Source: Desulfovibrio ferrophilus (lineage in GTDB: Bacteria > Desulfobacterota > Desulfovibrionia > Desulfovibrionales > Desulfovibrionaceae). Taken from it: a stretch of DNA of 64,000 nt. A program made the position numbers and the translations under genes. The notes beneath the pieces are model-generated. The model saw only the letters and a list, made by a program, of their open reading frames with translations. It searched no databases and was not told where the DNA came from. Positions 22,105 through 39,232 of the stretch are shown here, piece by piece; the stretch's first letter is position 1, and each line of letters begins with the position of its first letter. Location of the stretch: assembly GCF_003966735.1 (NCBI RefSeq), contig NZ_AP017378.1, positions 1,473,501-1,537,500 of the forward strand. Direction: 5' to 3'.

Positions 22105-23487
22105 ATGCAGGCCAATATATTGCTCATAGAAGACGATGCAGCCTTCCGAGGCATGATTGAGGAAGCCCTTAAAGCACGAAACTACGAGGTGTCCGCCGCC
22201 GGGCGTGCCGAGGATGGAATCAGCATTGCCGGGAGTGGAGCCTTTGATCTGATCCTGACAGACGTCAAATTACCGGGCATGTCCGGTGTTGAGGCCATCC
22301 CCAAGCTCAAGGAAGCGGCCCCGGACGCTGACATCATTGTCATGACGGCCTACTCCGCCAAGGAAACAGCAGTGGAAGCCGTGCGCCAGGGAGCCTACGA
22401 TTTCTTCTCAAAACCTTTCAGCCTGTCCGAGCTGGACGTGGTTATCCGCCGCGCGCTGGACAAACGCCGCCTGCAAAATGAAGTTGTGGCTCTACGTGAA
22501 ACCTTACGTAGCGAAGGCCCTTCCATGCGAATCCTTGGGGATTCGCACCCCATGCGCGAGGTCAAGGCGCTGGTCGAACGCATCGCCCCGCTGGACACCA
22601 CTGTTCTTGTCATCGGTGAATCCGGCACAGGTAAGGAATTGATTTCAGACACCATCCGAGCCTTGTCCGGGCGTTCATCGGGTCCATTTGTCAAGGTCAA
22701 CTGCGCCGCCATCCCTGAGCACCTGTTTGAAAATGAACTATTCGGCCATGAAAAAGGCGCATTCACCGGAGCCTCCAATGCTCAGCCCGGAAAATTCGAG
22801 CTGGCACACGGTGGGACCATCATGCTTGATGAAATCGGCGACATGCCACTCCCCATCCAGCCCAAGCTCCTACGTGCCGTTGAGCAGAAGCAGGTTGAGC
22901 GCCTTGGCGCACGTCGTCCCGTAGATGTTGATGTACGCATCATCGCAGCAACCAACCAGAACCTGCAAGAACGTGTTCGGGACAAAGCCTTCCGCGAAGA
23001 CCTCTATTACAGATTGAGTATTGCAGTGGTTGAACTGCCCCCTCTTCGGCAACGCAAAAGCGACATCCCACTCCTTGCCCAGCACTTCATCAAGAGAATC
23101 AATGCCACCATCGGCCTGCCCGTAAAATCGGCATCCCCCGACGCCCTGGCCGCCCTGAAGAAACAGGATTGGCCGGGCAACGTCCGCCAGTTGGCCAACA
23201 CCCTTGAGCGTGCGGCCATACATGCGGGCTCAGACATCATCAGTGCCCAGGATATTGCGTCTGCCCTTGGTGGCCCCAAACCTACCATGGCAGACGGTGA
23301 TGATATCGACCAAGGAGCTATCGATCTGCGCACCACCATGCGTGAAGTGGAACGCAACTTGATCGTGGGTGCTTTGACCAGGGCCGGAGGTCTGCAGACC
23401 GAAGCAGCCACCCTGCTGGGACTGACCCCCAAGAACCTCTGGGCAAAAATCAAGAAGCACGGCATCGATCCCAAAGCCCCGCACTGA
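22105..23487 (+). CDS. Sigma-54-dependent response regulator (NtrC/AtoC type), probable Tad pilus activator
   Basis: A 460-residue bacterial enhancer-binding protein. The receiver domain at 1-120 has phospho-acceptor Asp53 (LTDVKLPG). The AAA+ domain has Walker A GESGTGKE near 171, the sigma-54-contacting GAFTGA near 219 and the DLYYRLS and WPGNVRQL motifs. A Fis-type helix-turn-helix ends the protein (TEAATLLGLTPKNLWAKIKKH). No cognate kinase is adjacent. It lies directly upstream of the pilus locus, which starts with a sigma-54 promoter, so I infer that it switches on pilus expression. It lacks an obvious ribosome-binding site, and a 15-bp repeat sits just upstream. Confidence 0.93.
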   Translation: MQANILLIEDDAAFRGMIEEALKARNYEVSAAGRAEDGISIAGSGAFDLILTDVKLPGMSGVEAIPKLKEAAPDADIIVMTAYSAKETAVEAVRQGAYDFFSKPFSLSELDVVIRRALDKRRLQNEVVALRETLRSEGPSMRILGDSHPMREVKALVERIAPLDTTVLVIGESGTGKELISDTIRALSGRSSGPFVKVNCAAIPEHLFENELFGHEKGAFTGASNAQPGKFELAHGGTIMLDEIGDMPLPIQPKLLRAVEQKQVERLGARRPVDVDVRIIAATNQNLQERVRDKAFREDLYYRLSIAVVELPPLRQRKSDIPLLAQHFIKRINATIGLPVKSASPDALAALKKQDWPGNVRQLANTLERAAIHAGSDIISAQDIASALGGPKPTMADGDDIDQGAIDLRTTMREVERNLIVGALTRAGGLQTEAATLLGLTPKNLWAKIKKHGIDPKAPH

Positions 23488-23777: not shown

Positions 23778-23910
23778 TTTCAGCCCATCTAAGGGCATCG
23801 GAGTTTGCCCCCGCCAGACAAGGCTCCAGAGTTTTGTGGTTTTTTATTACCCATAATTACAGCAGTTTAGAGATTAAATTATTCAACTATAGCCCTACTA
23901 AAACACTTCG

Positions 23911-23925
23911 TGGCACACGCCTTGC
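23911..23925 (+). promoter_or_regulatory. Sigma-54 (-24/-12) promoter of the Tad pilus operon
   Basis: TGGCAC-ACGCC-TTGC matches the sigma-54 consensus TGGCAC-N5-TTGC exactly, with GG and GC ten bases apart. The expected transcription start is near 23937, giving a 5' leader of about 70 bases before the pilin start codon. Confidence 0.8.
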
Positions 23926-24007
23926 CTTGTGGAGTTCATCAACGGCAAAGGATCCATCCCCAAGCCATAACAAGAATCGGGAACTTTCTAACATGAGGAG
24001 AAGAACC

Positions 24008-24172
24008 ATGAAGACCTTGATGAACCTTATCCGTAACGAAGAAGGCGTCACCGCTCTCGAATACGGCATGATTGCCGCCCTGATCGCCGCTGTTATCGCC
24101 GCTACCGTCGGCCTGCTTGGCACCGGCATCAACACCGCTTTCCAAACCGTGCTGACCGCCATTGGCGGCTAA
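24008..24172 (+). CDS. flp: Flp-family type IVb major pilin
   Basis: A 54-residue prepilin, the main building block of the Tad/Flp pilus. The leader MKTLMNLIRNEEG ends at the prepilin peptidase site, and the mature part begins VTALEYGMIAALIAAV with the conserved Glu at +5 and Tyr at +6. The rest is one hydrophobic helix. ATG 24008 has the ribosome-binding site GAGGAGAAG; an upstream in-frame extension is discarded because it lacks pilin character. It is the first gene of the operon, 70 bases after the predicted start of transcription, and is followed by a hairpin at 24234-24272. Confidence 0.95.
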   Translation: MKTLMNLIRNEEGVTALEYGMIAALIAAVIAATVGLLGTGINTAFQTVLTAIGG

Positions 24173-24325: not shown

Positions 24326-24877
24326 ATGGACGCCCTGCACTACATCATCCTCACCTTCATCCTCCTGATCGCGACGGTCACTGACCTGCGTGAACGAAGG
24401 ATACCTAACAAGCTGACGTATCCCGCCATGCTGCTGGCCCTATGCTGGCACTACGTGATGACCGGCGCTGACGGTCTCGTCTTTGCCTCCATCGGCCTTG
24501 CTGCGGGTTTCGGCACCATGCTCATCCCCTTCCTGATGGGATACATGGGCGCCGGAGACGTCAAGCTCATGGCCGTCGCTGGAGCCTTTCTGGGCCCCGC
24601 TGGCGCGCTCAAGGCATTTCTGTTTACCAGCCTCGTTGGCGGTGTCTACGCCGTGGCCGTTGTTGCCTGGCGCTCTCCCCTGACCACGATGCTGGCCTCT
24701 GCCATGAAGGACTCAAAGGGACTGCTGGCTGGCGCTGGCACCTGGGTTCAGAATCTTCAAGGCAGATCGCAGGGCGTTCCCCAACTCGCATACGGAGCCG
24801 CCATCGCGGCCGGAACCATCATTTCCGTAATCAGTGATTACGGGATGAATGCTTTTGTTCCGGTCTGGTGGGCATAG
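24326..24877 (+). CDS. cpaA: Prepilin peptidase, CpaA/TadV type
   Basis: A 183-residue aspartic membrane peptidase that removes the leader from Flp and the TadE-type pseudopilins. The first catalytic Asp is in ATVTDLRERRIPN near residue 20 and the second in the GxGD motif YMGAGDVKLMA near residue 78. About six hydrophobic segments are visible. It lacks the N-terminal methylase domain of type IVa enzymes, as is normal for TadV. Ribosome-binding site AAAGGAG. It lies 12 bases before cpaB. Confidence 0.92.
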   Translation: MDALHYIILTFILLIATVTDLRERRIPNKLTYPAMLLALCWHYVMTGADGLVFASIGLAAGFGTMLIPFLMGYMGAGDVKLMAVAGAFLGPAGALKAFLFTSLVGGVYAVAVVAWRSPLTTMLASAMKDSKGLLAGAGTWVQNLQGRSQGVPQLAYGAAIAAGTIISVISDYGMNAFVPVWWA

Positions 24878-24889
24878 GAGGACAACGCC

Positions 24890-25714
24890 ATGCGTAAGAC
24901 CGCAGTTATCCAAATCGTTATCGCCCTGGTCCTGTCGCTGATCGCCGGTGTGCTCGTCTTCAAGTGGATGAACGCCCGTCTGGGCGCAAAGCAACAGGAA
25001 GACGCAAGCTCGCAAGTCACGATCATCGTTGCCGCAAAGGACATTGCCAAGGGTGAAAAGCTCACTGAAGAATTACTCAAGCAAGCCAGATTCCTGAAGG
25101 AAAATGCTCCCTCAGGAACATATGCCGAAGTCGAATCCCTGACCAACCGCGTTGCGGCTTTCCCCATTGGCGAAGGCGAGGCCATCACAGCCTCACGCCT
25201 TGTCAGTGACGAAGCCTTCTCGGGTGTCAGCACCCTGATCGCCCCGGGCAAGCGCGCCGTGGCCGTCAAGGGCAACAAGGTTTTGGGACTGTCCGGATTC
25301 ATTCGCCCCGGCAATCACGTGGATGTGCTGGTGACCATGGATATCCAGGACAAGAACAAGGATGAATACTCCTTCTCCAAGACCGTGCTTGAAGACATCA
25401 AGGTCATCGCCACGGGCACCGAACTGGAGCCCGAGGGCGACGACGGCGAAACCTCATCCATGGACACATACACCCTGGAACTGAGTAGCGAAGAAAGTGA
25501 AAAGCTTGCTCTGGCCGCCTCCAGAGGGACTCTGCATTTTGCTCTGCGCAATCCCGCAGACGTCAAGGACGTTCGCACCGAAGGCATCGATGTTCCCAAG
25601 CTGATGTCATCGCTCAAGCAACCCAAAGGCAAGAGCGGCAAGCCCAAGTATGTGGGAGTGGAAGTCATCACCGGCACCAGCCGCAAGACAGTGAGGTTTG
25701 CACGTCATGACTAG
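24890..25714 (+). CDS. cpaB: Flp pilus assembly protein CpaB/RcpC
   Basis: A 274-residue periplasmic assembly protein with one N-terminal membrane segment (residues 6-26). A SAF-type domain follows (IIVAAKDIAKGEKLTEELLK, then EAITASRLV), and then the RcpC/CpaB region with IAPGKRAVAVKG and IRPGNHVDVLVTM. It is thought to stabilise or gate the secretin. Ribosome-binding site AGGAGGAC. Its stop overlaps the start of cpaC by eight bases. Confidence 0.92.
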   Translation: MRKTAVIQIVIALVLSLIAGVLVFKWMNARLGAKQQEDASSQVTIIVAAKDIAKGEKLTEELLKQARFLKENAPSGTYAEVESLTNRVAAFPIGEGEAITASRLVSDEAFSGVSTLIAPGKRAVAVKGNKVLGLSGFIRPGNHVDVLVTMDIQDKNKDEYSFSKTVLEDIKVIATGTELEPEGDDGETSSMDTYTLELSSEESEKLALAASRGTLHFALRNPADVKDVRTEGIDVPKLMSSLKQPKGKSGKPKYVGVEVITGTSRKTVRFARHD

Positions 25715-27176
25715 TAGCAACATCGTCCGCAAGACGGTCTTGCTGACCGTCGCATTCCTGACCCTGTCCTGCACCGGTGCTGTTGCGGGCACGAATTTCG
25801 CGACCGAATCCATTGAACTGACCAAGAGCAAGTCCATGGTCCTGAACAGTCAGATTCCCATCAAGCGGCTGTCCGTGGCTGACCCGGAAATTGCCGAAAT
25901 CCTGTTGCTCTCGCCCAATCAGATCTACCTCACGGGCAAGGCACCCGGCGCCACCAACCTGACCCTGTGGGGTCATGACGGTCGTGTCTCGCACATCTAC
26001 GACATCTCCGTGACCCCGGACATTGCTCAACTAAAGCAGATGCTGCACCGCGTGCTCCCCGATGAGCGCAACCTGAAGGTCATGGCCGCCGGTGAATCCA
26101 TCACTCTGTCCGGCGTTGTCAGCAGCACAGGCAACCTGAGCACCGCTCTGGATCTGGCCGAACTCTATGCCCCGGAAAAGGTAACCAATCTGATGAGCGT
26201 CGGTGGCGTGCATCAGGTCATGCTCGAGGTCAAGGTCGCTGAGATGCACCGCAATGTGCTGGAACGCCTGGGCGTGGACCTGGCCTTCGCATCCAATGGC
26301 AATCTGGCCTACACCTTGCTGAACAACCTGATTTCCCTGGATAACCAGAACCCTGCCCTGACAGGCGGAACCAATACTCCAGGCTTGCTCTACAATACCG
26401 AGACCACCACAGCGATCGGTCGCACCGCCATCGGCAGCACCAACATCACGGGCTTTCTGGATGTGCTCAAGCAAAACGGACTGGTCAAGGTCCTGGCCGA
26501 ACCCACTCTCATCTGCCGCAGTGGCGAAGAAGCCCAATTCCTGGCCGGTGGCGAGATTCCCGTGCCCATTCCGCAGGGACTCGGCACCGTGGCCATCGAG
26601 TACAAGCCCTACGGTGTGGCCCTGGCCTTCACCCCGGTCGTACTCTCGCAGGGCCGCATCAGCCTGAAGGTGTTCCCCGAAGTTTCCGAGCTGGATTACG
26701 CCAATGCCCTGAACATTTCGGGCTTCACCATCCCGGCACTGACCAGTCGCCGCGCCTCCACCACCGTGGAACTGGGCGACGGTCAGAGCTTTGCCATCGC
26801 CGGACTGTTGCAGGACGAAATCCGCGAAGACATCAAGAAGTATCCAGGACTGGGCGACATCCCCATCCTCGGGACCCTGTTCCGATCCAGTAATTTCCAG
26901 AAGTCGGAAACCGAACTGGTGATCATCGTCACACCGCATCTGGCCAAGCCCATGGAAGTGGTGGACGGCTCATTACCTACCGATCATTTCGTTGAACCCA
27001 GCGAACTGGAATTCTTCATCTACGGCAAGATGGAAGGTGAACGTGACCCTGATCTTCCGGCCCCGGCCAAGACCAGTGTCCGCCCGGCGTCCACAGTACC
27101 CGCCGCTGGCGGAGCAACCCCCTCCGGCCCGGATGCGGGCATGGAAGGCGACTTCGGACACATCCTGAAGCCATAG
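25707..27176 (+). CDS. cpaC: Tad secretin CpaC/RcpA
   Basis: A 489-residue outer membrane secretin through which the pilus exits. It has a signal peptide (hydrophobic core LLTVAFLTLSC, then GAVAG), an N-terminal pilus-assembly domain with KRLSVADPEIAEILLLSPNQ, and a BON-like region. The secretin core includes LEVKVAEMHRNVLERLGVDL, LAEPTLICRSGEEAQFLAGGEIPV and the final VIIVTPHLAKP. A Pro/Ala-rich tail of about 60 residues follows. The start is taken as ATG 25707; a TTG nine bases upstream is possible. Confidence 0.94.
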   Translation: MTSSNIVRKTVLLTVAFLTLSCTGAVAGTNFATESIELTKSKSMVLNSQIPIKRLSVADPEIAEILLLSPNQIYLTGKAPGATNLTLWGHDGRVSHIYDISVTPDIAQLKQMLHRVLPDERNLKVMAAGESITLSGVVSSTGNLSTALDLAELYAPEKVTNLMSVGGVHQVMLEVKVAEMHRNVLERLGVDLAFASNGNLAYTLLNNLISLDNQNPALTGGTNTPGLLYNTETTTAIGRTAIGSTNITGFLDVLKQNGLVKVLAEPTLICRSGEEAQFLAGGEIPVPIPQGLGTVAIEYKPYGVALAFTPVVLSQGRISLKVFPEVSELDYANALNISGFTIPALTSRRASTTVELGDGQSFAIAGLLQDEIREDIKKYPGLGDIPILGTLFRSSNFQKSETELVIIVTPHLAKPMEVVDGSLPTDHFVEPSELEFFIYGKMEGERDPDLPAPAKTSVRPASTVPAAGGATPSGPDAGMEGDFGHILKP

Positions 27177-27192
27177 AGACAAGGAGACGATC

Positions 27193-27474
27193 ATGCGACA
27201 TCTCATCCATATATCCCTGGCCATTCTGGCCCTGTTGGCACTCTCCGGTTGGAGTTGGGATCAAAAGCCCCGCGCCTTCGGTGATTCCTTTCGCATGCAG
27301 TTGAATGCCCAGAAGGTGAATCCCGAACCACGTATTGCTCCTGACGCCCCGGTGGAAGGAATCAATGGCCGTGTGGCCGCCGATGCCATGGAAGGCTATC
27401 GCGCTCCCGACCCCAAGGACAAGGGACCGAGCTTTGCCGATGCCATTGAAAGCCTCATGGATACGGAAAAGTAG
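27193..27474 (+). CDS. Small exported protein of the Tad locus
   Basis: A 93-residue protein with a signal peptide (IHISLAILALLALSG) and no lipobox cysteine. The mature part is short, basic at first and acidic at the end, with VEGINGRVAADAMEGYRAPDPKD in the middle. It sits where other Tad loci encode RcpB or the CpaD lipoprotein, between the secretin and CpaE. It resembles neither in length. I infer a periplasmic accessory role for the secretin. Ribosome-binding site AAGGAG, with 16 bases to the gene before and 12 to the next. Confidence 0.85.
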   Translation: MRHLIHISLAILALLALSGWSWDQKPRAFGDSFRMQLNAQKVNPEPRIAPDAPVEGINGRVAADAMEGYRAPDPKDKGPSFADAIESLMDTEK

Positions 27475-27486
27475 GGGGATATACAT

Positions 27487-28716
27487 ATGAGTACCACCTA
27501 CCCCACCAATCTTGTTCTCCAGAGCCCCAAGGCAGCCAAGCATCTCGGCGCTCTGGTCGCCACGCATCCGCGCTTTGACGTTGGCCAGTCCAAGAACGGC
27601 CCTGCCGGCCTGGTCATCTACGAATTGGGACGCGACACAGCCAGCGATCTGGATCGCATCCATCGTCTGGTGTCCGGTGGTCGCGTGGCCGAAGTGTTTG
27701 TTTCCGCCACCGTTAAGGACCCGGACCTGATCATCGCCGCCATGCGCGCCGGTGTCACCGAGTTCCTGCCTTGGCCCATGGAATCCGAAGATCTTACCGC
27801 AGCTCTGAACCGCTTTGTCGAGCGCAGGGAAACGGCCTCAACCAGACAGCCCAGCCTGGCCTCCGAAGGCCCCAAGGGACGCATTATCCATGTTCTGGGC
27901 GTCAAGGGAGGCGTGGGAGCAACCACCCTGGCCGTAAACCTTGCCGTGGAAACGGCGCGGCTCGATCCTTCGCGCCCTGTGGCTCTTGTGGACGCAGCCC
28001 TTCCAGCAGGAGAAATCCCGCTGTTCCTGGACTTCGACTACACTTACACCTGGGCCGAAGCCGTACGCGACGTCAAGCGCCTGGACACCACCTTCCTGGA
28101 AAGCCTCATGACCCGCCACGGAAGTGGCGTGGACGTGCTCGCCGCCCCGGATCGCCTGGAAGATACGGAGGCCCTGTCCGCCGAGGGCATGAAGACCATG
28201 CTGGAGCTGATGCGCGGTATGTACGGCACCGTGGTCGTGGATGGCAGCCCTTATCTCGATCCTCCGTCTCTGGCCGCCCTGGAAGCTGCTGACGAAATCC
28301 TGCTCACCACCGAACTGTCTCTGCCCTGCCTGTCCCTGGTGCGGCGCCTACTGGAGTCCTTTGCCAATCTGGACGGCAATATCGAAAACAAGATCCGACT
28401 GGTGGTCACCCGCCATCAGGCTCAGGGAGGCATCACCCCCAACGAGGCCGAAGAACTGCTGGGCATCAAGGTCCACTGGCTCATCGACAACGACTATTCC
28501 GGAACCCTGGAAGCCATCAACCTCGGGCGCCCGCTTTATGAGTCCGCTCCCAAGTCTGCCGCAGCCCGGTCCATCGTCAAGCTCGCGGCCCGCTACACGG
28601 CTCCCGCATCGGCACAGACAGGTGGGAAGTCCGGTCTGCTGAAGCGCTTTTTGGGCAGAAAGAAGAACGAGTCCTGTTCCATCCCGTCCGGAATCAATCT
28701 CCAGGTGGAGGGCTAA
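27487..28716 (+). CDS. cpaE: Tad polar localisation ATPase CpaE/TadZ
   Basis: A 409-residue MinD/ParA-type protein. An N-terminal receiver-like domain (1-120) without a clear phospho-site is followed by the ATPase domain. That domain has the deviant Walker A motif GVKGGVGATTLA near residues 138-149 and the VVDGSPYLD Walker B-like strand. In other systems TadZ/CpaE marks the cell pole for pilus assembly. Ribosome-binding site TAGGGGGATATACAT; the gene ends three bases before the cpaF start. Confidence 0.92.
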   Translation: MSTTYPTNLVLQSPKAAKHLGALVATHPRFDVGQSKNGPAGLVIYELGRDTASDLDRIHRLVSGGRVAEVFVSATVKDPDLIIAAMRAGVTEFLPWPMESEDLTAALNRFVERRETASTRQPSLASEGPKGRIIHVLGVKGGVGATTLAVNLAVETARLDPSRPVALVDAALPAGEIPLFLDFDYTYTWAEAVRDVKRLDTTFLESLMTRHGSGVDVLAAPDRLEDTEALSAEGMKTMLELMRGMYGTVVVDGSPYLDPPSLAALEAADEILLTTELSLPCLSLVRRLLESFANLDGNIENKIRLVVTRHQAQGGITPNEAEELLGIKVHWLIDNDYSGTLEAINLGRPLYESAPKSAAARSIVKLAARYTAPASAQTGGKSGLLKRFLGRKKNESCSIPSGINLQVEG

Positions 28717-28719
28717 GCC

Positions 28720-30354
28720 ATGAGTCTCGCCGACAGACTGAACCGTAGCGCCCGCATGGGCGGCATCGCCCGAGCCCCAAGACCGGCACCGGCACCTCTG
28801 CGCCCTGAACAGCCCGTAGCAGAACCCTCCGTGGAATCCACAATTCCTGAGGACGAGTTCCTGTTTGAAACACCTGCGGGGGAACAGTCCATTCCCGGAG
28901 AACATCACGCACCAGAGGCTCCCGTTGCACCTGTAGAGCCCGTTGCTCCTCGTATGTCTGCGGCAGCTCCCGTCAGTCAGGTGGAGACCACCCGCCCCGT
29001 TCTCGCAAAGCCCATGGAAACCCCAGAAATCGGCAGCGGCGATCCTGGCATTACCCACAATGAAGATTACTACGACATCAAGGCCAAACTGCATGAACGC
29101 CTCATCGAAAGCCTGGACCTGTCGGCGGTGGACGAGTTGGCCCCCGAACGCCTGCGCGACGAAATCGCCCGCTTGGTCGGTCGTATTCTGCGCGATGAGT
29201 TCCGCCATGCCCCCCTGAACGCAGCCGAACGCCGCCAGGCCATCGCGGAAATTCAAGACGAAGTCCTTGGACTGGGACCTCTGGAGCCCTTGCTTCAGGA
29301 CCCCAGCGTGTCGGATATTCTGGTCAACAACCACCGCCAGATTTACGTGGAACGCAGGGGCAAGCTGCAACGAGTAAGTACCCGTTTCCGTGATGATGAG
29401 CACCTGAAGAAGATCATCGACCGCATCGTTTCGCGCATCGGACGCCGCGTAGACGAATCCTCTCCCATGGTGGACGCCCGCCTGGAAGATGGCTCGCGCG
29501 TCAACGCCATTATCCCGCCTCTGGCCCTGGACGGACCGAGTATGTCCATCCGGCGCTTCTCACGCGACCCACTGGAACTGGAAGACCTCATAAATTACGG
29601 AGCGTTGACCCCTGCGATGGGCGAAGTGCTCAAGGGCATCGTTCGCGCCCGCTTGAACATCATCGTCTCCGGCGGAACCGGCTCGGGCAAGACCACCATG
29701 CTCAACTGTCTGTCGCGCTTCGTGCCTCACGACGAACGTGTCGTGACCATCGAGGACGCCGCCGAGCTGCAACTCAAGCAGGACCATGTGGTGCGCCTGG
29801 AAACCCGCCCGCCCAATATTGAAGGCGAAGGCGAAGTCACGGCCCGCGATCTAGTCAAGAACTGCCTGCGCATGCGCCCCGACCGCATCATCGTTGGCGA
29901 GGTCCGTGGCGGCGAGGTTCTGGACATGCTCCAAGCCATGAACACCGGCCATGATGGCTCCCTGACCACCGTTCACGCCAACAGCCCACGCGATGCTCTG
30001 ATGCGCATGGAAACCATGGTCGCCATGGCAGGTCTGAACATCACAGGCTCGTCACTGAAGCGTTACATTTCTTCGGCAGTGGACGTCATCGTGCAGGTCA
30101 GCCGCCTGTCCGACGGTTCACGCAAGATCATCAGCCTGTCCGAGATTGCCGGCATGGAAGGGGAAGCCATCACCATGCAGGAAATCTTCGCCTTCAAGCA
30201 GGAAGGCATCGGCCCTGACGGCAAGGTTATTGGCGAATCCAAGGCCATGGGAATCCGACCCAAGTTCGCTCCGCGCCTTGAGGCTGCAGGCATCCATTTC
30301 GACGGTGCCATCTTCGATCCGAAGCTGGCGGATGAAGGAGGTTGGTCCTCATGA
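28720..30354 (+). CDS. cpaF: Tad secretion ATPase CpaF/TadA
   Basis: A 544-residue hexameric ATPase that powers pilus assembly. The N-terminal 115 residues are a Pro/Glu-rich, poorly conserved extension. The core holds [15 protein letters not shown], Walker [10 protein letters not shown] near 317-325, Asp box EDAAELQL, Walker [14 protein letters not shown] near 387-399 and the His box region [15 protein letters not shown]. Ribosome-binding site GGAGGGC. Its stop overlaps the tadB start in an ATGA arrangement. Confidence 0.95.
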
Positions 30355-31316
30355 TTGCTCTGGTCGCCTTTGTCATCATCATCGCCATGTTTGCCATGTC
30401 CATGGGCATCCTGGATCTGTTCTTCGCCAAAAAGCGTGCAAACCGGGCTCGCGTTGGCAAGCGCCTGACCGCTTTGAATCAGAACGTGAGTACCGGCGAG
30501 CAGGTGAATATCGAACGCACGCGCAGCCTGTCTGACGTGGACTGGCTGAACAGGGCCCTGAAGCAGCAATCCTGGAGCCAACGCCTGGACAACATCCTGG
30601 AACAGGCCCAGGTGAGGGTCAATGTTTCAACTCTGGTGCTGACTTCTCTGGTGGGTGCAACCACGGCACTGTTCATTACTCAGGCCATGACGGAAAACTT
30701 TTTCATCCGCTTGATCCCGACGGCGATCTTCTTCTACGCCCCGTTCTTCTGGGTCAGACGGCGCAAGGCCAAGCGTATGCACAAGTTCAATGCCCAACTG
30801 GCCGATGCCCTGGACCTCATTGCCCGGGCGCTCAAGGCTGGGCACGCCTTTTCACAGGGCATGCGCATGGTGGCTGACGAATTCGAAGACCCCATCGGTC
30901 CTGAATTCTCCAAGACTCTGGACGAAATCAACTTTGGAATCTCCGTCGGCCAGGCATTGCTCAACCTGACCCAGCGCGTGGACTGCACGGACCTCAAATT
31001 CTTCGTGGTTTCGGTCAATATCCAACGCGAGACGGGCGGCAACCTCTCCGAGATCGTGGGCAATATCGCCCGCCTGGTTCGGGAACGCTTCAGATTCGCC
31101 GGCAAGGTCCAGGTTCTGGCTGCCGAGGGCAAGCTCACAGCCTACATCCTGCTCTCGCTGCCCTTTGCAATCGGTTTTGCAATCACTGCCATCAACCCCG
31201 ACTACATGAGCGAAATGCACACCACGGAGGCTGGCCGCAACCTCATCACGGGAGCACTCATCCTCATGGGCTGCGGCGCTGCAGTGCTCAAGAAACTCAT
31301 CACCATCAGGGTCTAG
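30351..31316 (+). CDS. tadB: Tad inner membrane platform protein TadB
   Basis: A 321-residue integral membrane protein of the GspF superfamily. One N-terminal segment, two central segments (near 85-130) and two C-terminal segments surround the cytoplasmic T2SSF domain, which reads [32 protein letters not shown]. It works with TadC as the platform for CpaF. ATG 30351 has a strong AAGGAGG at nine bases; an upstream TTG in frame is less likely. Confidence 0.93.
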
Positions 31317-31328
31317 GGAGGGATAGCC

Positions 31329-32261
31329 ATGAACGACACCATGCTTCTGCCTCTTGCCGCCGCCGGGCTGGCCTTTGCCTCGATCCTGCTTCTGACGCTT
31401 GGCGTCTCCGGGATGGTGGGCAACAAGAACCGCGTCTCACGCCTGCGTGAACGACTGGAAGGCAAGCGCGCGCCGAAGAAGCCCGGACTCACGGCCACCC
31501 TGACTCAGGGCGCACGCCAGTTGGGCGAACGCCTCGGCCCCAAGGATGAAAGCGAACTTTCTGAAACCGGCGAAATGCTGATCCAGGCGGGATACCGCAA
31601 TAGCACGGCACCCAAGATTTTCTGGGGCGTGAAGGTCTGTCTGACACTGATGGGCCTCATCGCCGCGCTGGGAGCAAAGATGCTGGCCCCGGTGCAAATC
31701 CCCAACGGTTTGCTGGCGCTGCTGTTCGTGGTCCCCATGTTCATGGGCATGTACCTGCCCAACATCTGGTTGCGCATCAAGGTCAAGAAGCGCCGCCGCG
31801 AAATCATCAACGCCATGCCCGATGCGCTGGACCTTTTGGTGGTCTGCGTGGAAGCAGGCATGGGCCTGGACCAGGCCCTGGCGCGCGTCAGCAACGAAAT
31901 GCGACTGACCAGCCCCATCCTGGCCAGCGAACTGCACACCGTGATTCTTGAACTGCGCGCAGGCAAGACCCGAGCCGACGCCCTGCGTAACCTGGCTGGG
32001 CGAGTAGGCGTGGATGACGTCACAAGCCTGGTGACGCTTCTTGTCCAGGCCGACTCCTTCGGCACCAGCGTAGCCCAGACTTTGCGCGTGTACTCGGATG
32101 CCTTGCGTACCACCCGTTATCAACGCGCCGAGGAAATCGCAGCCAAGATGCCCGTAAAAATTCTATTCCCGCTGATCTTCTTCATTCTGCCCTCATTGCT
32201 CGTGGCCATCATGGGCCCGGCAGGACTGAAGATGGTGAAATTGTTTGCAACGATGAAATAG
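31329..32261 (+). CDS. tadC: Tad inner membrane platform protein TadC
   Basis: A 310-residue paralogue of TadB and second platform subunit. The T2SSF domain is recognisable in INAMPDALDLLVVCVEAGMGLDQALARVSNE and in the second half TLLVQADSFGTSVAQTLRVYSD. An N-terminal membrane segment, a central pair and a C-terminal segment (LIFFILPSLLVAIMG) are visible. Ribosome-binding site GGGAGGG. Confidence 0.93.
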   Translation: MNDTMLLPLAAAGLAFASILLLTLGVSGMVGNKNRVSRLRERLEGKRAPKKPGLTATLTQGARQLGERLGPKDESELSETGEMLIQAGYRNSTAPKIFWGVKVCLTLMGLIAALGAKMLAPVQIPNGLLALLFVVPMFMGMYLPNIWLRIKVKKRRREIINAMPDALDLLVVCVEAGMGLDQALARVSNEMRLTSPILASELHTVILELRAGKTRADALRNLAGRVGVDDVTSLVTLLVQADSFGTSVAQTLRVYSDALRTTRYQRAEEIAAKMPVKILFPLIFFILPSLLVAIMGPAGLKMVKLFATMK

Positions 32262-32273
32262 GAGGACTCCGCC

Positions 32274-33974
32274 ATGTTAAGAACCATATCAACCATCGTG
32301 ATCATCGCCGCCCTGACGGCCAGCACGCTGCCAGGATGCTCCTCCAAGGCACCAAAGGCATCCGACCTGACGCTCATGGAGCGTTACCACAGCGGCATGT
32401 CGCTGGTCGGCGACGACGGCAACCTGAGCAGTGAGCAGGAACAAGCCAGAGCTCACCTTTCCCGCGGGATGCACTTTGCCGGACAGCAGCGCTATGAGTT
32501 GGCCTTCGAGCAATACACGAGAGCCACGGTCCTCGACCCGACTCTGGCCGAAGCCCGCTATCGCCGTGGCCTGATCCTCATGGAAAACGGCATGCACGAC
32601 CAGGCTCTGGCCGAATTTGCCGCCGTGAGCGAACAGATGCCCGACTTCGCCCCCGCCCATGAGGCCGCCGGACTGGTCTACTTCAAGAGTGCATTGTATC
32701 TTGAATCCGAGCAGCATTTAATCCGCGCCCTGAGCCTGAATCCAAACCTGGTGAGGGCCCACGTGCATATCGGCGTGATTCGCAATTATGCCAAGGATTA
32801 TGAAGGAGCGCTCAAGTCCTTCAGTTCCGCCCTGATGGTCGCCCCCAACGATGGCAGCATCTACAACAACATCGGCATGACCCAATCCATGATGGGCAAT
32901 GACGAAGACGCCGTGCAGGCCTTCAACATGGCCCTGCGCATGGGCGCTCCATCGGCCAAGGCATACAACAACATGGGATTGGCCCTGGCCCGTCTGCAAC
33001 GCTGGGACGAGGCTCTGGAAGCCTTCCGTTGCGGCAATGGCGAGGCCGCAGCCTATAACAACATCGGCTATCTCTACTTCCTGGATGGCATGTATCCGCA
33101 GGCCATCGCCTCATTCGAGCGTGCCATTGAGCTGGAACCTCAATACTACGTCCGCGCCAGTGAGAACCTGAAGCGCGCCCGACTGGCACTGAGTTTTGCC
33201 GATAACGCTGCCCCGCGTAGCGCCCCGGTCCGTGGCACGACCTCCATCCCCAGCCTGATGGCCCCCGCTTCCGTATCTCCCGGCCCGCTGGTGCCCGCTG
33301 GTGGCGCCCCCGGCCCGGAGCTGGAATCGGCCTACCCCACACCCGGTGCCCCGGCCATGAAGACACCTCAACCCCAGTCGTTCGACTCCGAAAGCGTCAA
33401 GCCCGTGGTACCCATCGATCACAACTCCGGCCTGACAAGCTCCGGTCTCGTGTCCAAGGCGCAGGCGGTGGTTACGACCCCAATCATGCCTCGCAGCAAC
33501 GGGCTCATGACCACTGCATCGGTTAGCCATGCCTCCCTTTCCGGCAGCGGACTGCCCATGGCACAGACCGTTGCTTTTTCACCTGTTCCGTCAACCATGA
33601 ACCGGCCGCCCATGGCCTCTCCCGTTGCGCACCCCATCGCCACTGGGGACACCCCGGAACCGACGCCCAGCGTTGATTTGTCGGAATACATCCCGGGACC
33701 CATGCCCGCAAAGCCAGTGTACACATTGCACGTCAGCTCCTGGCGGACCCCGGAACATGCCTTACGCCATGCAGACAACCTGAAGGCCCAGGGCCAGACG
33801 CCCTACATTCTGCATGTGCATCTGCCCGAGAAGGGCGACTGGTATCGCGTGACCATCGGCATGTACGACTCATTGGCCACCGCACGGGAAAGTCTTGAGT
33901 CCCATAGGCAGGAAAACGAATTCAAGGGATTGCGCATTGTCCGTAGCCAGCGTCATCTGCTGCCCCAAGGTTAG
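32274..33974 (+). CDS. tadD: TadD-type TPR lipoprotein fused to a SPOR domain
   Basis: A 566-residue outer membrane lipoprotein with lipobox LPGC and lipidated Cys22. Residues 60-310 contain about seven TPR repeats (for example YNNIGMTQSMMGNDEDAVQAF). About 175 residues of Pro/Ser/Ala-rich linker follow. The last 80 residues form a SPOR peptidoglycan-binding fold (YTLHVSSWRTPEHALRHADN, then GDWYRVTIGMYDS). Ordinary TadD proteins are about 250 residues and end after the TPRs. TadD is a pilotin-like assembly factor for the secretin; the added SPOR domain would let it bind denuded peptidoglycan. Confidence 0.88.
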   Translation: MLRTISTIVIIAALTASTLPGCSSKAPKASDLTLMERYHSGMSLVGDDGNLSSEQEQARAHLSRGMHFAGQQRYELAFEQYTRATVLDPTLAEARYRRGLILMENGMHDQALAEFAAVSEQMPDFAPAHEAAGLVYFKSALYLESEQHLIRALSLNPNLVRAHVHIGVIRNYAKDYEGALKSFSSALMVAPNDGSIYNNIGMTQSMMGNDEDAVQAFNMALRMGAPSAKAYNNMGLALARLQRWDEALEAFRCGNGEAAAYNNIGYLYFLDGMYPQAIASFERAIELEPQYYVRASENLKRARLALSFADNAAPRSAPVRGTTSIPSLMAPASVSPGPLVPAGGAPGPELESAYPTPGAPAMKTPQPQSFDSESVKPVVPIDHNSGLTSSGLVSKAQAVVTTPIMPRSNGLMTTASVSHASLSGSGLPMAQTVAFSPVPSTMNRPPMASPVAHPIATGDTPEPTPSVDLSEYIPGPMPAKPVYTLHVSSWRTPEHALRHADNLKAQGQTPYILHVHLPEKGDWYRVTIGMYDSLATARESLESHRQENEFKGLRIVRSQRHLLPQG

Positions 33975-34004
33975 GAGCGCAATCCCATGACTGGAGGAAT
34001 TGCC

Positions 34005-34394
34005 ATGCTACGCAAACTCATTGGATCCAACAGAGGCGTCTCGGCCCTGGAAGCGGCACTGTTGCTGCCGGTCCTGGCAGGACTCCTGTACGTGGTCGTC
34101 GAGGGAGCCGGAGCACTGATCACTTATTCATCGCTGTCAGAAGCCAGCAGTGTGGCTGCTCGCCAAGTACTCATGACCGGTGAAAGTTCGCACATCCCGG
34201 ATCTGGTCAATGCACTGCTGCCAGACCTTGATCCCTCAGACATCGTCACAACCGTAACTTTTGAAGATGCTGGAAGCACAGTGACCGTGGAGGTGACTTA
34301 TGACTATCAAACACAGCTCGGTGGAAACCCGCTTAGTGACACGAGTTCTGACCTGCTTACGCTCGTTGCGAGCACGAGCATGCCGGTTCCCTAA
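34005..34394 (+). CDS. tadE: TadE-like pseudopilin
   Basis: A 129-residue type IVb pseudopilin. The N-terminus MLRKLIGSNRG followed by VSALEAALLLPVLAG has the prepilin peptidase site after Gly with Glu at +5, then a hydrophobic helix. The rest is a small periplasmic domain. I chose ATG 34005 because TGGAGGAA lies seven bases upstream; ATG 33987 with GGAGCG is an alternative that adds six residues. The last 95 bases overlap tadG in another frame. Confidence 0.86.
   Translation: MLRKLIGSNRGVSALEAALLLPVLAGLLYVVVEGAGALITYSSLSEASSVAARQVLMTGESSHIPDLVNALLPDLDPSDIVTTVTFEDAGSTVTVEVTYDYQTQLGGNPLSDTSSDLLTLVASTSMPVP
34289..34296 (+). promoter_or_regulatory. Strong ribosome-binding site of tadG inside tadE
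   Basis: GGAGGTGA lies four bases before ATG 34300 and is embedded in the coding sequence of tadE. It matches the anti-Shine-Dalgarno sequence over eight bases and fixes the tadG start despite the long overlap. Confidence 0.75.
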
Positions 34395-35640
34395 GCAACT
34401 CATCACCGACACACGTGGTGCGACAGCGGTCTTCGTGGCAGCTGCCATCCCGACTCTGGTCGGCCTTGCCGGACTGGGGCTGGACTCGGCCCTGCTGTAT
34501 CAGGCCCATGGCCGCCTGCAATCCGCTGTGGATTCCGCAGCACTGGCAGGTAGCCTGGAGCTGCCCTACGATCCCGACATGACCAAGGGCATCGTGGAAG
34601 CCGCTGCCGTGGAATATCTGGAAAAGAATTATCCCGAAGCTCAACTCAAAAGTCTGGGTTCCGGCACCGAAGCCCGAAGCGTGACGGTTGAAGGCGAAGC
34701 CGTGGTGGACCTGTTGCTCCTGGATGCTCTGGGCCTCTCGGATACGGTCATCACCGCCAAGGCCACTGCCGGATTCAACAACCTGGAAATAGTGTTCGTC
34801 ATTGACAACTCGGGCAGCATGAAGGGCGCCCCCATCACCGAGACCAACGAGGCATCAGTGAATCTGGTGAACCTGATCATGCCTGCGGGCATGGAGTCTT
34901 CGGTCAAGGTCGGCCTGGTGCCTTTCCGCGGCAAAGTTCGCATCCCGGCCAACGTGGACGGACTGCCTGCTGGTTGCCGGAATGCGGACGGTACATTCAA
35001 CTGGGACCTGGATGAAGAATACTACAAGACTGAGTATCGCTATCCGGTCGGAAGCTACCTGCGCGTGAGCAGTGGCACCTGCTCCGGCATCCCCGAGACC
35101 CAGGGATTGACTCATGACCGCAGCTCCATCGTTACGGCCATCGAGGATCAGGATGCACGAGGCACGGCTTCGGGCACGGTCATCTCTGAAGGGCTCAAGT
35201 GGGCGCGACACGTTCTGACCCCGGAAGCTCCGTTCACCGAAGGTTCTGACAAGGATGATATGCGCAAGATCATCATCCTGCTGACCGATGGCGACACCGA
35301 AGACGGCATGTGCGGCGGCAACTATGACGTCAGTTACACACCGAACGTCTACTGGACCAATGCCTATTACGGCATGCTGGACATGGAGTCGCACTGTGAC
35401 AATGGTGGCGTACTAAACCAGGCGATGCTTGATGAAGCCCAGCTCGCCAAGGACGCTGGAATCGAGATCTTTGCCGTACGCTATGGCAATTCGGATTCCA
35501 CAGATGTGACGCTCATGAAGCAGGTGGCTTCGAGCAAGGCTGGCACGGATGATCATTTCTATGATGCCCCGTCGCCCTACGACATTGACGACATATTCAA
35601 GAAGATCGGGCGTCAGCTCGGTTGGAGACTGCTCAACTAG
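34300..35640 (+). CDS. tadG: TadG-like protein with von Willebrand A domain
   Basis: A 446-residue protein with an N-terminal anchor (TRGATAVFVAAAIPTLVGLAGLG) near residues 38-60 and a TadG-type pilus region. The VWA domain starts near residue 163 with the metal-binding DNSGSMKG and a later Thr/Asp loop (LLTDGDTEDG). Several cysteines in the VWA domain could form disulfides. It overlaps tadE by 95 bases, which is unusual but supported by its ribosome-binding site. The VWA domain suggests adhesion or surface binding; this is inference. Confidence 0.9.
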   Translation: MTIKHSSVETRLVTRVLTCLRSLRARACRFPKQLITDTRGATAVFVAAAIPTLVGLAGLGLDSALLYQAHGRLQSAVDSAALAGSLELPYDPDMTKGIVEAAAVEYLEKNYPEAQLKSLGSGTEARSVTVEGEAVVDLLLLDALGLSDTVITAKATAGFNNLEIVFVIDNSGSMKGAPITETNEASVNLVNLIMPAGMESSVKVGLVPFRGKVRIPANVDGLPAGCRNADGTFNWDLDEEYYKTEYRYPVGSYLRVSSGTCSGIPETQGLTHDRSSIVTAIEDQDARGTASGTVISEGLKWARHVLTPEAPFTEGSDKDDMRKIIILLTDGDTEDGMCGGNYDVSYTPNVYWTNAYYGMLDMESHCDNGGVLNQAMLDEAQLAKDAGIEIFAVRYGNSDSTDVTLMKQVASSKAGTDDHFYDAPSPYDIDDIFKKIGRQLGWRLLN

Positions 35641-35661: not shown

Positions 35662-36156
35662 ATGCGGCATCGGGCAGAGACCAGCTTGGCGGCACATTGC
35701 AGGGCTCGCCGTGGCGAACAGGGGACCAGCGTGCTGGAGTTTGCCCTGGTCCTGCCCGTGCTGCTGGCCATGATCTTCGGCATTGTGGAATTGGGATACA
35801 TCTACTTCGCCCGCGCGACCGTAGGCAAGGCCGCCCAGGTGGCGGTCCGCTATGCGGTGACTGGAAACGGAGACGATGATGGAACACGCCTGACCAAGGT
35901 CATTGAAGAGGCGCAGCGGATCATTGAAGTCCTACCCGGCAGCGCTACGGTCACGGTCAGCAGTTGGGAAACCTATACCGGAGCCACGGGTACCGGCCGC
36001 ATCAATGATGCCGGTGCTCCCTGCGAACTGGTACAGGTGGAGGTACGCTACCCGTATGAAGCACTGACCCCCATCATAGGGGATCTGGTACCCGATGACA
36101 TGGTCCTGACAGGCAGAGAGCGAATGGTCAACGAGCCATGGCTCCCCTGCAACTGA
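35662..36156 (+). CDS. Second TadE-like pseudopilin
   Basis: A 164-residue pseudopilin with a longer basic leader (MRHRAETSLAAHCRARRGEQG), then TSVLEFALVLPVLLAMIFGIVELG. The peptidase site is after Gly with Glu at +5 and Phe at +6. The C-terminal domain has two cysteines. It is the last gene of the locus, 21 bases after tadG, with the ribosome-binding site CGGGAGAAA. It could be TadE or TadF by position; the FxxVLPVL pattern favours TadE. Confidence 0.87.
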   Translation: MRHRAETSLAAHCRARRGEQGTSVLEFALVLPVLLAMIFGIVELGYIYFARATVGKAAQVAVRYAVTGNGDDDGTRLTKVIEEAQRIIEVLPGSATVTVSSWETYTGATGTGRINDAGAPCELVQVEVRYPYEALTPIIGDLVPDDMVLTGRERMVNEPWLPCN

Positions 36157-36692: not shown

Positions 36693-36925
36693 GTCTTTTC
36701 ATACTCCTTATGCGCTGCTCGATACCCCAAACAGGGGGCGAGGAACCTCCATAGCCCGCTGGTCGGCAAAAGGAAAGCCCGGGCCTACCGCCCCGCAAGC
36801 GACCTTTGATGTACGGATTGTCCTTCAACCTGCCATCTGATATCATGATGAATACCCAATTTATAGAAAACACAGGGCCTTCCGCCCTTGTCACGGCTAC
36901 GGAGAACCTCTTAGGGGAACCCTCA

Positions 36926-39232
36926 ATGGACGCTCGCTTCAGCCTGCTCATCGCCACATCATCCGAAGACAATGCAGCGGACTTGACCCAAATTCTGGGG
37001 CAAGCGGGACTTCGACCTGCCTATACCGTAGCAACCACCCTCGACGACTTCTCCCGCGCACTGGCTGATGAACCTTGGGACATGGTGCTTTGCGACGAAT
37101 GGCTAGGCGAACTCAGCTGGACCGAGGCCATGGCCATGGCCCGTGCCGAACGCCAGGACGTTCCCTTTCTCCTCCTGACGAATGAGGCCGACCCCAAAGC
37201 CGCCCTTGCAGCCATGGAAGCCGGTGCTGACGATGTGCTCATTCCTGGTGACTGGAAAACAGCCGGCACCATGACCCGAATTCTGCGCCAGGCCCGAGAG
37301 CACCGCACCCTATCCGACCGCTGGAACAAGCTGCGCAGCAATGAGCGTACCTACCGGGGCATGATCGACAACTCCGTGCTTGGCATTTTCCAATGCGCCC
37401 CGTGGGGAGACCTGATCGCCTTCAATCCTTCTTTCGCCCGCATCCTGGGCTATGAATCCGTCGAACAGTTGGACCAGACCCTTCAAGGCAACAGGCTCCT
37501 GCCCCACCTGGATCCCCAGGCTATGGAAGCCCTGTTGTTCATGGTCCGCTCCCATGACAGGGTTTCGGATTTTGAAACCATGATCACCCGTCCCGATGGC
37601 TCGCGCATCTGGGTCTCCATCAGCGCCAGGGCGATTCGCGGCGAAGAAAACGAGATTTCGGCCATCGAAGGCACCTTCGAGGATATTCAAAAGCGCAAGA
37701 CCGTCGAGTCGATGATCATCCGCGCCAAACAGGAATGGGAAAAGACCTTCGACAGCGTCCCGGACATCATCCTCATTCTGGACCAGAATTTCCGGGTACG
37801 GCGAATGAACATGACCTTGGCACAGCGCCTTGGGGTGCACCCCAAGGACCTGGTGGGCAAGCCATGCTCGGAACTCTTCCCTCTGCAGGGAGAGGAAAAC
37901 GACATCTGCGACCGCGTCAAGGTGATGTCGAAAAGTGGTTCCCAGGCCGAGGAAATGCAAATCCCGGCACTGGGCGGCTGGTTCCTGGTGACGGTTTCCC
38001 CCTTCTTCGTGGACGGTGACACCGAACAACCCGCAGGCTCGGTGGTCGTTGCCCACGACGTCAGCAATCGCAAGGACCTGGAGATCAAGCTTCGCCAATC
38101 ACAGAAGATGGAAGCCATCGGCACCCTGGCTGGCGGCATCGCTCATGATTTCAACAATATTCTCGGCGTCATGATGGGCTATACCGAAATGAGCCTGGAA
38201 GAAGCCGAGGACGGAGCCCCGGCCCAACGCAGGTTGACCGAGGTGCTCTCCGCCGGACGACGAGCCCGAGACCTGATTCACCAGATTCTGACGTTCAGCC
38301 GTCAGGAGGAACTGGACCTCCAGCCCCTGGATTTGGGCAGCGTGGTCAAGGAAGTGGTCAAGCTGCTGCGGGCGTCTCTGCCCTCGAGTATCGACATCCG
38401 CCTGGACCTCAACGACAACACGGGCACCGTGCGAGCCAATCTGTCCCAGATTCATCAGGTGCTGATGAATCTCTGCACAAACGCCGCTCATGCCATGCGA
38501 GACAACGGTGGCACCCTGACCATTAAACTGTCTCACGTCCCGGCCGGGAGCGCACTGCCCGGACAGGACGGCAACATTTCCGACGCGCCTCATGCTCGCC
38601 TGTCTGTCTCCGACCAGGGGCACGGCATTGCTGCGGACATCGTAGACAAGATCTTTGATCCTTTCTTCACCACCAAGGGACCCGACGAAGGCACGGGGAT
38701 GGGACTGGCCATGGTGCATGGCATCGTGACCGGGCATGGTGGCGTGGTCACTGTTCAAAGTGTGCTCGGCGAAGGCACCCATTTTGATATCCTGCTGCCC
38801 GTAGTCGAAGACAACGATCAGAGCCTGCTGCGCGTTCCGCATTCAGTGCCACAGCAGCACAGTGGTCGGGCCTTGTTTGTGGATGATGAAGCTCCTCTGG
38901 CAGCCGTGGGGGGCGAGATGCTGGAGACCATGGGGTTTACGGTGGATGTGGAAACCGACCCGAAAGCCGCATGGAAACGGTTCCAGTCGGCTCCCCACGA
39001 CTATGACTTGATCGTTACCGATCAAACCATGCCCGGTGTCACCGGAGCCGAGCTTGCACAGCAAATTCTGAACCTGAGGCCGGATATCGCTGTCATCATG
39101 TGCACTGGTTTTTCCGATGAAATGTCAGCCGAACGAGCGAAAAAGATGGGCCTCAAGGGGTATTTGCTCAAGCCGGTACTCAAGAAAGACCTCGCCGCGT
39201 CTGTCCACGAGGCTATGAAAACGATCATCTGA
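36926..39232 (+). CDS. Hybrid histidine kinase: receiver, two PAS, kinase, receiver
   Basis: A 768-residue cytoplasmic hybrid sensor kinase with no membrane segment. The N-terminal receiver-like domain (1-125) has an Asp in LCDEWLG. PAS domains lie at about 145-265 and 275-390. The HisKA box GGIAHDFNNILG carries His407, the ATPase domain has DQGHGIAADIVDKIFDPFFTTK and GTGMGLAMVHG, and the C-terminal receiver has an acceptor Asp near 699 (VTDQTMPG). I chose ATG 36926 with AGGGGA upstream; earlier in-frame starts down to 36806 have no ribosome-binding site. The partner regulator is not adjacent. Confidence 0.9.
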   Translation: MDARFSLLIATSSEDNAADLTQILGQAGLRPAYTVATTLDDFSRALADEPWDMVLCDEWLGELSWTEAMAMARAERQDVPFLLLTNEADPKAALAAMEAGADDVLIPGDWKTAGTMTRILRQAREHRTLSDRWNKLRSNERTYRGMIDNSVLGIFQCAPWGDLIAFNPSFARILGYESVEQLDQTLQGNRLLPHLDPQAMEALLFMVRSHDRVSDFETMITRPDGSRIWVSISARAIRGEENEISAIEGTFEDIQKRKTVESMIIRAKQEWEKTFDSVPDIILILDQNFRVRRMNMTLAQRLGVHPKDLVGKPCSELFPLQGEENDICDRVKVMSKSGSQAEEMQIPALGGWFLVTVSPFFVDGDTEQPAGSVVVAHDVSNRKDLEIKLRQSQKMEAIGTLAGGIAHDFNNILGVMMGYTEMSLEEAEDGAPAQRRLTEVLSAGRRARDLIHQILTFSRQEELDLQPLDLGSVVKEVVKLLRASLPSSIDIRLDLNDNTGTVRANLSQIHQVLMNLCTNAAHAMRDNGGTLTIKLSHVPAGSALPGQDGNISDAPHARLSVSDQGHGIAADIVDKIFDPFFTTKGPDEGTGMGLAMVHGIVTGHGGVVTVQSVLGEGTHFDILLPVVEDNDQSLLRVPHSVPQQHSGRALFVDDEAPLAAVGGEMLETMGFTVDVETDPKAAWKRFQSAPHDYDLIVTDQTMPGVTGAELAQQILNLRPDIAVIMCTGFSDEMSAERAKKMGLKGYLLKPVLKKDLAASVHEAMKTII

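Follow-up and report, generated by a model that had tools for sequence, protein, structure and literature searches.

A SPOR-type domain with an altered binding site on the TadD lipoprotein of Desulfovibrionaceae suggests a link between the Tad pilus machine and the cell wall

In the Tad system of Pseudomonas aeruginosa, the last residues of the secretin RcpA are reported to bind the groove of the TPR lipoprotein TadD and to be needed for secretin assembly, and the RcpA rings have 13- or 14-fold symmetry (PMC10499894). That text makes no mention of SPOR or peptidoglycan and gives a size of 27 kDa for tagged TadD; hence, as far as this source goes, no SPOR-type tail is described for the P. aeruginosa protein. 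CpaO, the TadD orthologue of Caulobacter, is reported to be dispensable for pili and is at odds with the map of the machine; the same 2026 paper proposes a wall anchor for this Tad system, namely the lipoprotein CpaD, which is predicted to adopt an OmpA-like fold, is encoded by a separate gene and would tie the Tad secretin to peptidoglycan (PMC13170226). According to another recent paper, no wall hydrolase has been reported for Tad (PMC12307814). In other machines, the wall-binding domain is described on the secretin itself: in P. aeruginosa and Myxococcus, type IVa machines are guided to septa and poles by AMIN domains that PilQ carries at its N terminus (PMC5285504, PMC10653833), and the type II secretin LspD of Legionella carries a predicted N-terminal SPOR domain (PMC9239104, PMC6617341). 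A literature search of partial coverage returned no account of a TadD-SPOR fusion.

We analyzed a window of 64,000 nucleotides from Desulfovibrio ferrophilus (contig NZ_AP017378.1, positions 1,473,501 to 1,537,500), which contains such a fusion within a complete tad operon (Table 1). The gene order is Flp pilin, tadV, rcpC, rcpA, a small protein, tadZ-like, tadA, tadB, tadC, tadD and tadE/G/F-like genes, and the fusion is thus encoded in the same operon as its secretin. As in P. aeruginosa, a TPR lipoprotein stands beside a Tad secretin whose tail presumably lies in the TPR groove; unlike what is described there, the lipoprotein is extended by a SPOR tail. As for PilQ and LspD, a domain of a peptidoglycan-binding type is associated with the secretin complex, but here it is located at the C terminus of the pilotin instead of on the secretin, and a role in placement is only predicted. 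The likeness to CpaD lies in a lipoprotein that would connect the Tad secretin to peptidoglycan, whereas the fold differs and the domain is not encoded by a gene of its own.

Table 1. Features of the tad locus, with positions in the window
Feature	Position	Strand	Evidence
Flp pilin; translation probably starts further into the listed ORF	23834..24172	+	Pfam Flp_Fap, 48.3 bits
tadV, prepilin peptidase	24326..24877	+	Pfam Peptidase_A24
rcpC/cpaB, alignment complex	24890..25714	+	NCBIfam pilus_cpaB, 227.7 bits (cut-off 71)
rcpA, Tad secretin	25698..27176	+	Pfam Secretin, 151.8 bits; best PDB match RcpA 8odn, E 2.9e-57
Small protein of 93 aa with signal-like N terminus, between rcpA and tadZ	27193..27474	+	No Pfam match
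tadZ/cpaE-like, MinD-type ATPase	27487..28716	+	Pfam AAA_31 above cut-off; assigned by position
tadA, ATPase	28720..30354	+	Pfam T2SSE, 232.6 bits
tadB	30342..31316	+	Pfam T2SSF
tadC	31329..32261	+	Pfam T2SSF
tadD-SPOR gene	32274..33974	+	566 aa ORF; Pfam TPR and SPOR
Signal peptide and lipobox LPGC, presumed lipidated Cys22	32274..32339	+	Sequence; invariant Cys22 column
TPR superhelix, residues 53-312, presumed secretin-docking groove	32430..33209	+	Pfam TPR; AF2 pLDDT mostly >90
Pro/Ser/Ala linker, residues 318-463, predicted disordered	33225..33662	+	AF2 pLDDT <50; composition
SPOR domain, residues 482-558; Trp523 and Arg525 retained, His486 where Gln is usual	33717..33947	+	Pfam, model, alignment
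tadE-like pseudopilin	33987..34394	+	Pfam TadE
tadG-like, with VWA domain; the start listed lies inside tadE and is probably too early	34300..35640	+	Pfam Tad and VWA
tadE/F-like pseudopilin	35662..36156	+	Pfam TadE, 51.3 bits

The original prediction, made from the DNA letters, described a TadD lipoprotein whose TPR repeats are followed by a long Pro/Ser/Ala linker and a SPOR fold. This was borne out by Pfam, which recognizes TPR repeats between residues 59 and 291 as well as the SPOR domain, and by a full-length AF2 model, in which a confident TPR part, a disordered linker and a SPOR domain follow each other with the boundaries given in Table 1. The ORF is therefore a TadD-type, that is pilotin-type, TPR lipoprotein fused to a genuine SPOR fold. 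The region between residues 304 and 478 consists of 18% Pro, 14% Ser and 12% Ala; the linker of the window protein is about 150 residues long, and across 26 of the 27 SPOR-tailed proteins the corresponding arm was measured at roughly 50 to 190 residues. As judged from the alignment, Cys22 is invariant in all 56 TadD rows. The proline at position -2 of the window lipobox is unusual under the lipobox rule. No TadD-specific model was found among the 25 NCBIfam matches listed, the nearest ones (MamA, PrsT, PilW and Tgl) all scoring below cut-off. The 50 matches listed for the TPR superhelix were TPR proteins of other kinds, and the solved TadD was not among them. Plasmid and phage searches with TadD gave no record at 80% of the query, and the matches listed concerned the TPR part.

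The identity of the tail was supported from several sides. Pfam SPOR (PF05036) matched residues 482 to 541 of the full protein with 29.8 bits (cut-off 21), and the last 87 residues searched alone reached 34.0 bits (E 3.8e-8). An AlphaFold2 model of the tail, built from eight sequences, showed the beta-alpha-beta-beta-alpha-beta order of an RNP-like fold with a mean pLDDT of 83.2. The structural likeness to SPOR that had been expected was also found: the top six Foldseek rows were the CwlC SPOR domain, two chains of the Burkholderia exported protein 6ozd, two entries of the RlpA SPOR domain and the DedD SPOR domain, with a probability of 1.00 and modest E-values (3.3e-3 to 3.8e-2, none below 0.001). 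We count 6ozd as SPOR-like because it matches the TadD-tail profile. VIA-align gave the same picture, with Z scores against the tail model of 9.9 for 6ozd, 8.8 for RlpA, 8.5 for DedD, 8.1 for CwlC and 5.8 for DamX, the first unrelated chain scoring 4.6 and the FtsN SPOR domain only 3.8. A profile of 28 TadD tails searched against the PDB matched 6ozd (E 1.4e-5), FtsN 1uta (6.5e-5), CwlC (0.017) and, weakly, DamX (0.54), and a single-sequence PDB search with TadD found no SPOR chain. This last result and a best Foldseek E-value of only 3.3e-3 are what speaks for the SPOR call being a model artefact on a low-complexity C terminus. Against it stand the profile score above cut-off, the SPOR domains that lead both structure comparisons, the FtsN profile match and the selection on the domain described below, and we regard an artefact as extremely improbable. 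Taken together, the Pfam score, the predicted fold and the structure and tail-profile matches make the tail more than a chance match, and a chance match of a Pro-rich C terminus was discarded as an explanation.

To compare the selective constraints on the three parts, we used the genus relative in locus L041, whose TadD is 70% identical overall to the window protein. The dN/dS ratio was 0.118 for the TPR part, 0.511 for the linker (residues 304 to 478) and 0.174 for the SPOR domain; these values are rough, since they were obtained from a single pair by simple counting, at about 0.5 synonymous differences per site, but the contrast is clear. The SPOR domain of TadD is thus under purifying selection.

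TadD is assigned here as the presumed pilotin of RcpA by analogy with P. aeruginosa. RcpA of the window ends with the tail GMEGDFGHILKP (27138-27173), which contains a GxFGH-like motif and is probably the peptide on which TadD docks. It differs from the end of P. aeruginosa RcpA, L414-S415-D416 (PMC10499894). A loose G.[FYLV]G motif was present within the last 45 residues of all 44 usable RcpA proteins of Desulfovibrionaceae (two more were too short), and the stricter FG[HY] in 28 of these 44. Among 40 usable RcpA proteins of other families, FG[HY] occurred in 25/25 loci with TadD versus 1/15 without, and the single exception, L130, lies on a 3.3-kb contig that ends before the place of tadD. 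As a control, the motif was counted in further Tad proteins of these loci and occurred in 6/112 TadA, 0/108 TadZ, 0/111 TadB, 0/111 TadC and 0/103 RcpC proteins. These counts are to be read with the knowledge that the motif was chosen after the tails were known, that the loci are related and that loci without a BLAST-detectable TadD may hold a divergent one. A motif so tied to the presence of TadD could help to tell the Tad secretins that have a TadD pilotin from the others.

The prediction had further linked the fusion to a polar TadZ ATPase encoded three genes upstream. The tadZ-like gene is actually the fourth upstream of tadD, with tadA, tadB and tadC in between. It encodes a MinD-type ATPase whose polar action is putative, the TadZ_N match (16.5 bits) being below the cut-off of 26.4. 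A part of TadZ in polar targeting has been proposed on the grounds of homology between TadZ and MinD (PMC10499894). As for the other genes of the region, ORFs related to the 93-aa protein (27193-27474) are found in many tad loci of Desulfovibrionaceae. The operon is flanked by genes for a sigma-54 response regulator (22105-23487) and a hybrid PAS histidine kinase (36806-39232), which may control it.

We then surveyed TadD homologues for the tail. A TadD search of 149 Desulfovibrionaceae genomes gave matches in 59 of them, at 63 places; 60 of the 62 places outside the genome of the window were analyzed, two being left out (in G049 and G005). Together with the window, 56 TadD proteins adjoin tadA, tadB and tadC, and five without these neighbors were dropped. 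A SPOR tail was detected by Pfam (E 0.01) in 27 of the 56, which represent 27 genomes and 13 genus codes and include Halodesulfovibrio sp. SZUA-473 and Pseudodesulfovibrio pelocollis. A local SPOR model gave the same 27/56, an agreement that is partly circular since the model was built from 21 of the same tails. The TadD-SPOR fusion is thus real and conserved, and the idea of a one-genome oddity was ruled out. Of the remaining proteins, two have an AMIN domain, two are cut by contig ends (L071 and L087) and 25 have neither tail, which implies that Tad systems in general can do without it. AMIN replaces SPOR in L079 (8887-10518; 22.6 bits) and L093 (8927-10819; 20.3 bits, against a cut-off of 20.5), and a TadD with AMIN was also found in a different bacterial family (L136, 6721-8181; 32.1 bits). 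Judged by these matches, AMIN is a second, different domain of predicted peptidoglycan-binding type at the same place on the TadD pilotin. The tail of L098 can be aligned to it but has no Pfam match, and for this reason L098 was left out of the AMIN count. Scanning same-strand ORFs of at least 90 aa in 20 of the 29 tad loci without SPOR, we found no replacement peptidoglycan binder among the best 25 of 35 Pfam families, the other ten having few members.

Beyond this family, CpaB was detected in 88 of 395 genomes of a sample of the phylum. In 60 CpaB regions from other families, 26 of which contain a TadD-like ORF (two weak matches in L147 are probably not TadD), no SPOR-tailed TadD was found at E < 0.01 with a SPOR model that was trained on Desulfovibrionaceae tails and could miss divergent SPOR domains. 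The tail was also absent from 16 more named tad loci with TadD (L167-L215), the only match to the SPOR model there being one of 8.6 bits to a short opposite-strand ORF of L176. When 40 TadD proteins from these regions and loci were scanned with Pfam, the list comprised only families with at least 12 members, so that the zero for SPOR in this set is unproven; 10 long-tailed or large ones, scanned singly, had no SPOR among the matches listed, the lists of three of them being cut before the weaker matches. In this sample there was no sign of a tail common to Tad systems at large, and the SPOR-tailed TadD is, as far as sampled, restricted to Desulfovibrionaceae. The TadD-tail profile itself finds SPOR-like places in 167 of 297 genomes of the phylum and is therefore not TadD specific. 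A quick tree was built from TadA, TadB and TadC with 69 rows; it warns of long branches. On this tree, the SPOR label changed 4 times compared to a mean of 22.1 after shuffling, and the AMIN label 3 times. The four changes fit a single gain of SPOR followed by a few losses, without proving that history.

CpaD was considered as an alternative wall anchor and rejected: Pilus_CpaD (PF09476) had no match at E 0.001 in the genome of the window, and it is rare in the family (4/149 genomes, one above cut-off). That one match (G045:C9:79042-79647, 86.6 bits) perhaps belongs to a separately acquired Tad system.

We next examined the residues expected to contact glycan. RlpA grips glycan with the side chains of Q270, R302 and R309, and in FtsN, changes at Q251, S254, W283, R285 and I313 reduced septal localization, S254A being an exception (PMC6895207). 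With positions mapped by alignment to FtsN 1uta, 28 TadD tails (the 27 and L162) were compared to 45 other SPOR places from 15 of 16 relatives, after three TadD places had been set apart from the 48 listed. The tails share with RlpA and FtsN the fold and, on the glycan face, the Arg and hydrophobic positions. However, where these two proteins keep Gln (RlpA Q270, FtsN Q251), the TadD tails have His (22), Leu (5) or Met (1) and never Gln (0/28); the window protein has His486. Gln was found in 41 of the 45 other SPOR domains, with the caveat that the Pfam model by which this set was collected itself favors Gln, as judged from a SPOR profile described in PMC6895207. Conversely, the equivalents of FtsN W283 (window Trp523) and of FtsN R285/RlpA R309 (window Arg525) are Trp and Arg in 28/28 TadD tails, versus 16/45 and 28/45 of the other domains. 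Position 520 is Lys or Arg in 26/28 tails versus 0/45, but it falls in a loop with gaps, which makes its alignment less certain. The aligned rows being related, these counts are not independent events; at the level of sequence, the site of the TadD SPOR domain is altered in a way that is consistent across the tails. The two other SPOR proteins of the same genome, RlpA-like and FtsN-like, keep Gln. The former (L001) combines DPBB and SPOR domains and the latter (L003) lies beside an argS-like ORF, argS and the FtsN-like protein having been named by eye.

These data do not uphold the original prediction in one respect: it had the tail bind glycan strands stripped of peptides, and the hallmark Gln for this is absent in 28/28 tails. 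Standard SPOR specificity can hence not be assumed, and we do not file the TadD tail as a canonical binder of denuded glycan. The fusion itself is supported, as are its place in one operon with the secretin, its recurrence among homologues and the selection on it. A placement of the secretin at septal or new-pole wall, as the prediction proposed, would be in line with the placement of type IVa machines at septa and poles by peptidoglycan-binding domains of the secretin (PMC5285504, PMC10653833).

An altered SPOR tail on the pilotin suggests a mechanism by which the Tad machine would be tied to the cell wall. TadD would act as an outer membrane lipoprotein and pilotin of RcpA, its TPR groove holding the C-terminal tail of the secretin; since each RcpA tail would be held in this way, 13 to 14 copies would ring the secretin, as in P. 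aeruginosa. The SPOR domain, on its flexible arm, could then reach the peptidoglycan, and the ring of such domains would tether the secretin to glycan strands and steady the machine against the forces of the pilus. We consider it fairly probable that the SPOR tails tether the secretin ring to peptidoglycan. In favor of the tether are the SPOR profile and fold, the selection, the clustering on the tree, the invariant Trp and Arg, the AMIN domain at the same place, the RcpA tail motif with regard to the pilotin role, and the missing CpaD match; against it are the loss of Gln in 28/28 tails, the 25/56 TadD proteins with neither tail, the lack of a substitute binder among the families listed for neighbors of tailless TadD genes, the dispensable CpaO, the FtsN Z score of 3.8 and the modest Foldseek E-values. 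The tether would also favor assembly where suitable glycan is exposed, at the septum or new pole, and the two Amidase_3 proteins of this genome could provide such exposure. Placement by the SPOR tail is plausible, if speculative, and we consider it less likely than not.

Possibly, though again less likely than not, the tail binds glycan over the entire cell and serves merely to steady the secretin, whose position other factors would set. Such an anchor shares the tether step with the explanation that we favor and differs from it on placement, and the probabilities of the two overlap. The loss of the hallmark Gln may indeed relax specificity, and a purely anchoring function would match that proposed in Caulobacter for CpaD with its predicted OmpA-like fold (PMC13170226), matches to which are missing or rare in these genomes, as reported above. 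On the other hand, those SPOR domains of known function that PMC6895207 describes recognize denuded septal glycan. The residue pattern can also be read as a change of ligand. If glycan binding were lost, the domain could dock a protein such as RcpC, the N domain of the secretin or a cell wall enzyme, and the replacement of Gln in every tail together with the nearby Lys/Arg would form a family-specific surface for it; but Trp523 and Arg525 are invariant in precisely the tails that lost Gln, while other SPOR domains vary there, and FtsN changes at the equivalent positions reduced septal localization (PMC6895207), which makes this loss of glycan binding unlikely in our view. Somewhat less doubtful, though still far from probable, is that the Tad pilotin of Desulfovibrionaceae acquired, in a single event, a re-specified kind of SPOR domain, in which Gln gave way to His and a Lys/Arg was gained and which reads a feature of the wall other than denuded septal glycan. 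With 13 to 14 copies around each secretin, it would form a multivalent wall-sensing collar, and as this collar would decide where and when the Tad secretin assembles, the pilotin would be the address tag of the machine. Finally, TadD might be an accessory protein instead of a working pilotin, as CpaO is dispensable in Caulobacter (PMC13170226), the SPOR tail then having a separate role in the envelope. However, tadD lies within the operon, flanked by tadC and tadE, and the tail motif of RcpA goes with the presence of TadD; both argue against this, and we judge it quite improbable.

Returning to the tether that we favor, a TadD with a tail of wall-binding type offers a direct and deletable handle on the question of what attaches a Tad machine to the cell wall and determines its place there. 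Moreover, because a whole clade has replaced the conserved SPOR Gln and kept the other residues of the site, the TadD tail is a natural test of the role of this Gln. One genome of the survey, G131, contains two tad loci, with a SPOR tail on the TadD of one (L045) and none on that of the other (L075), which represents a natural comparison within a single cell.
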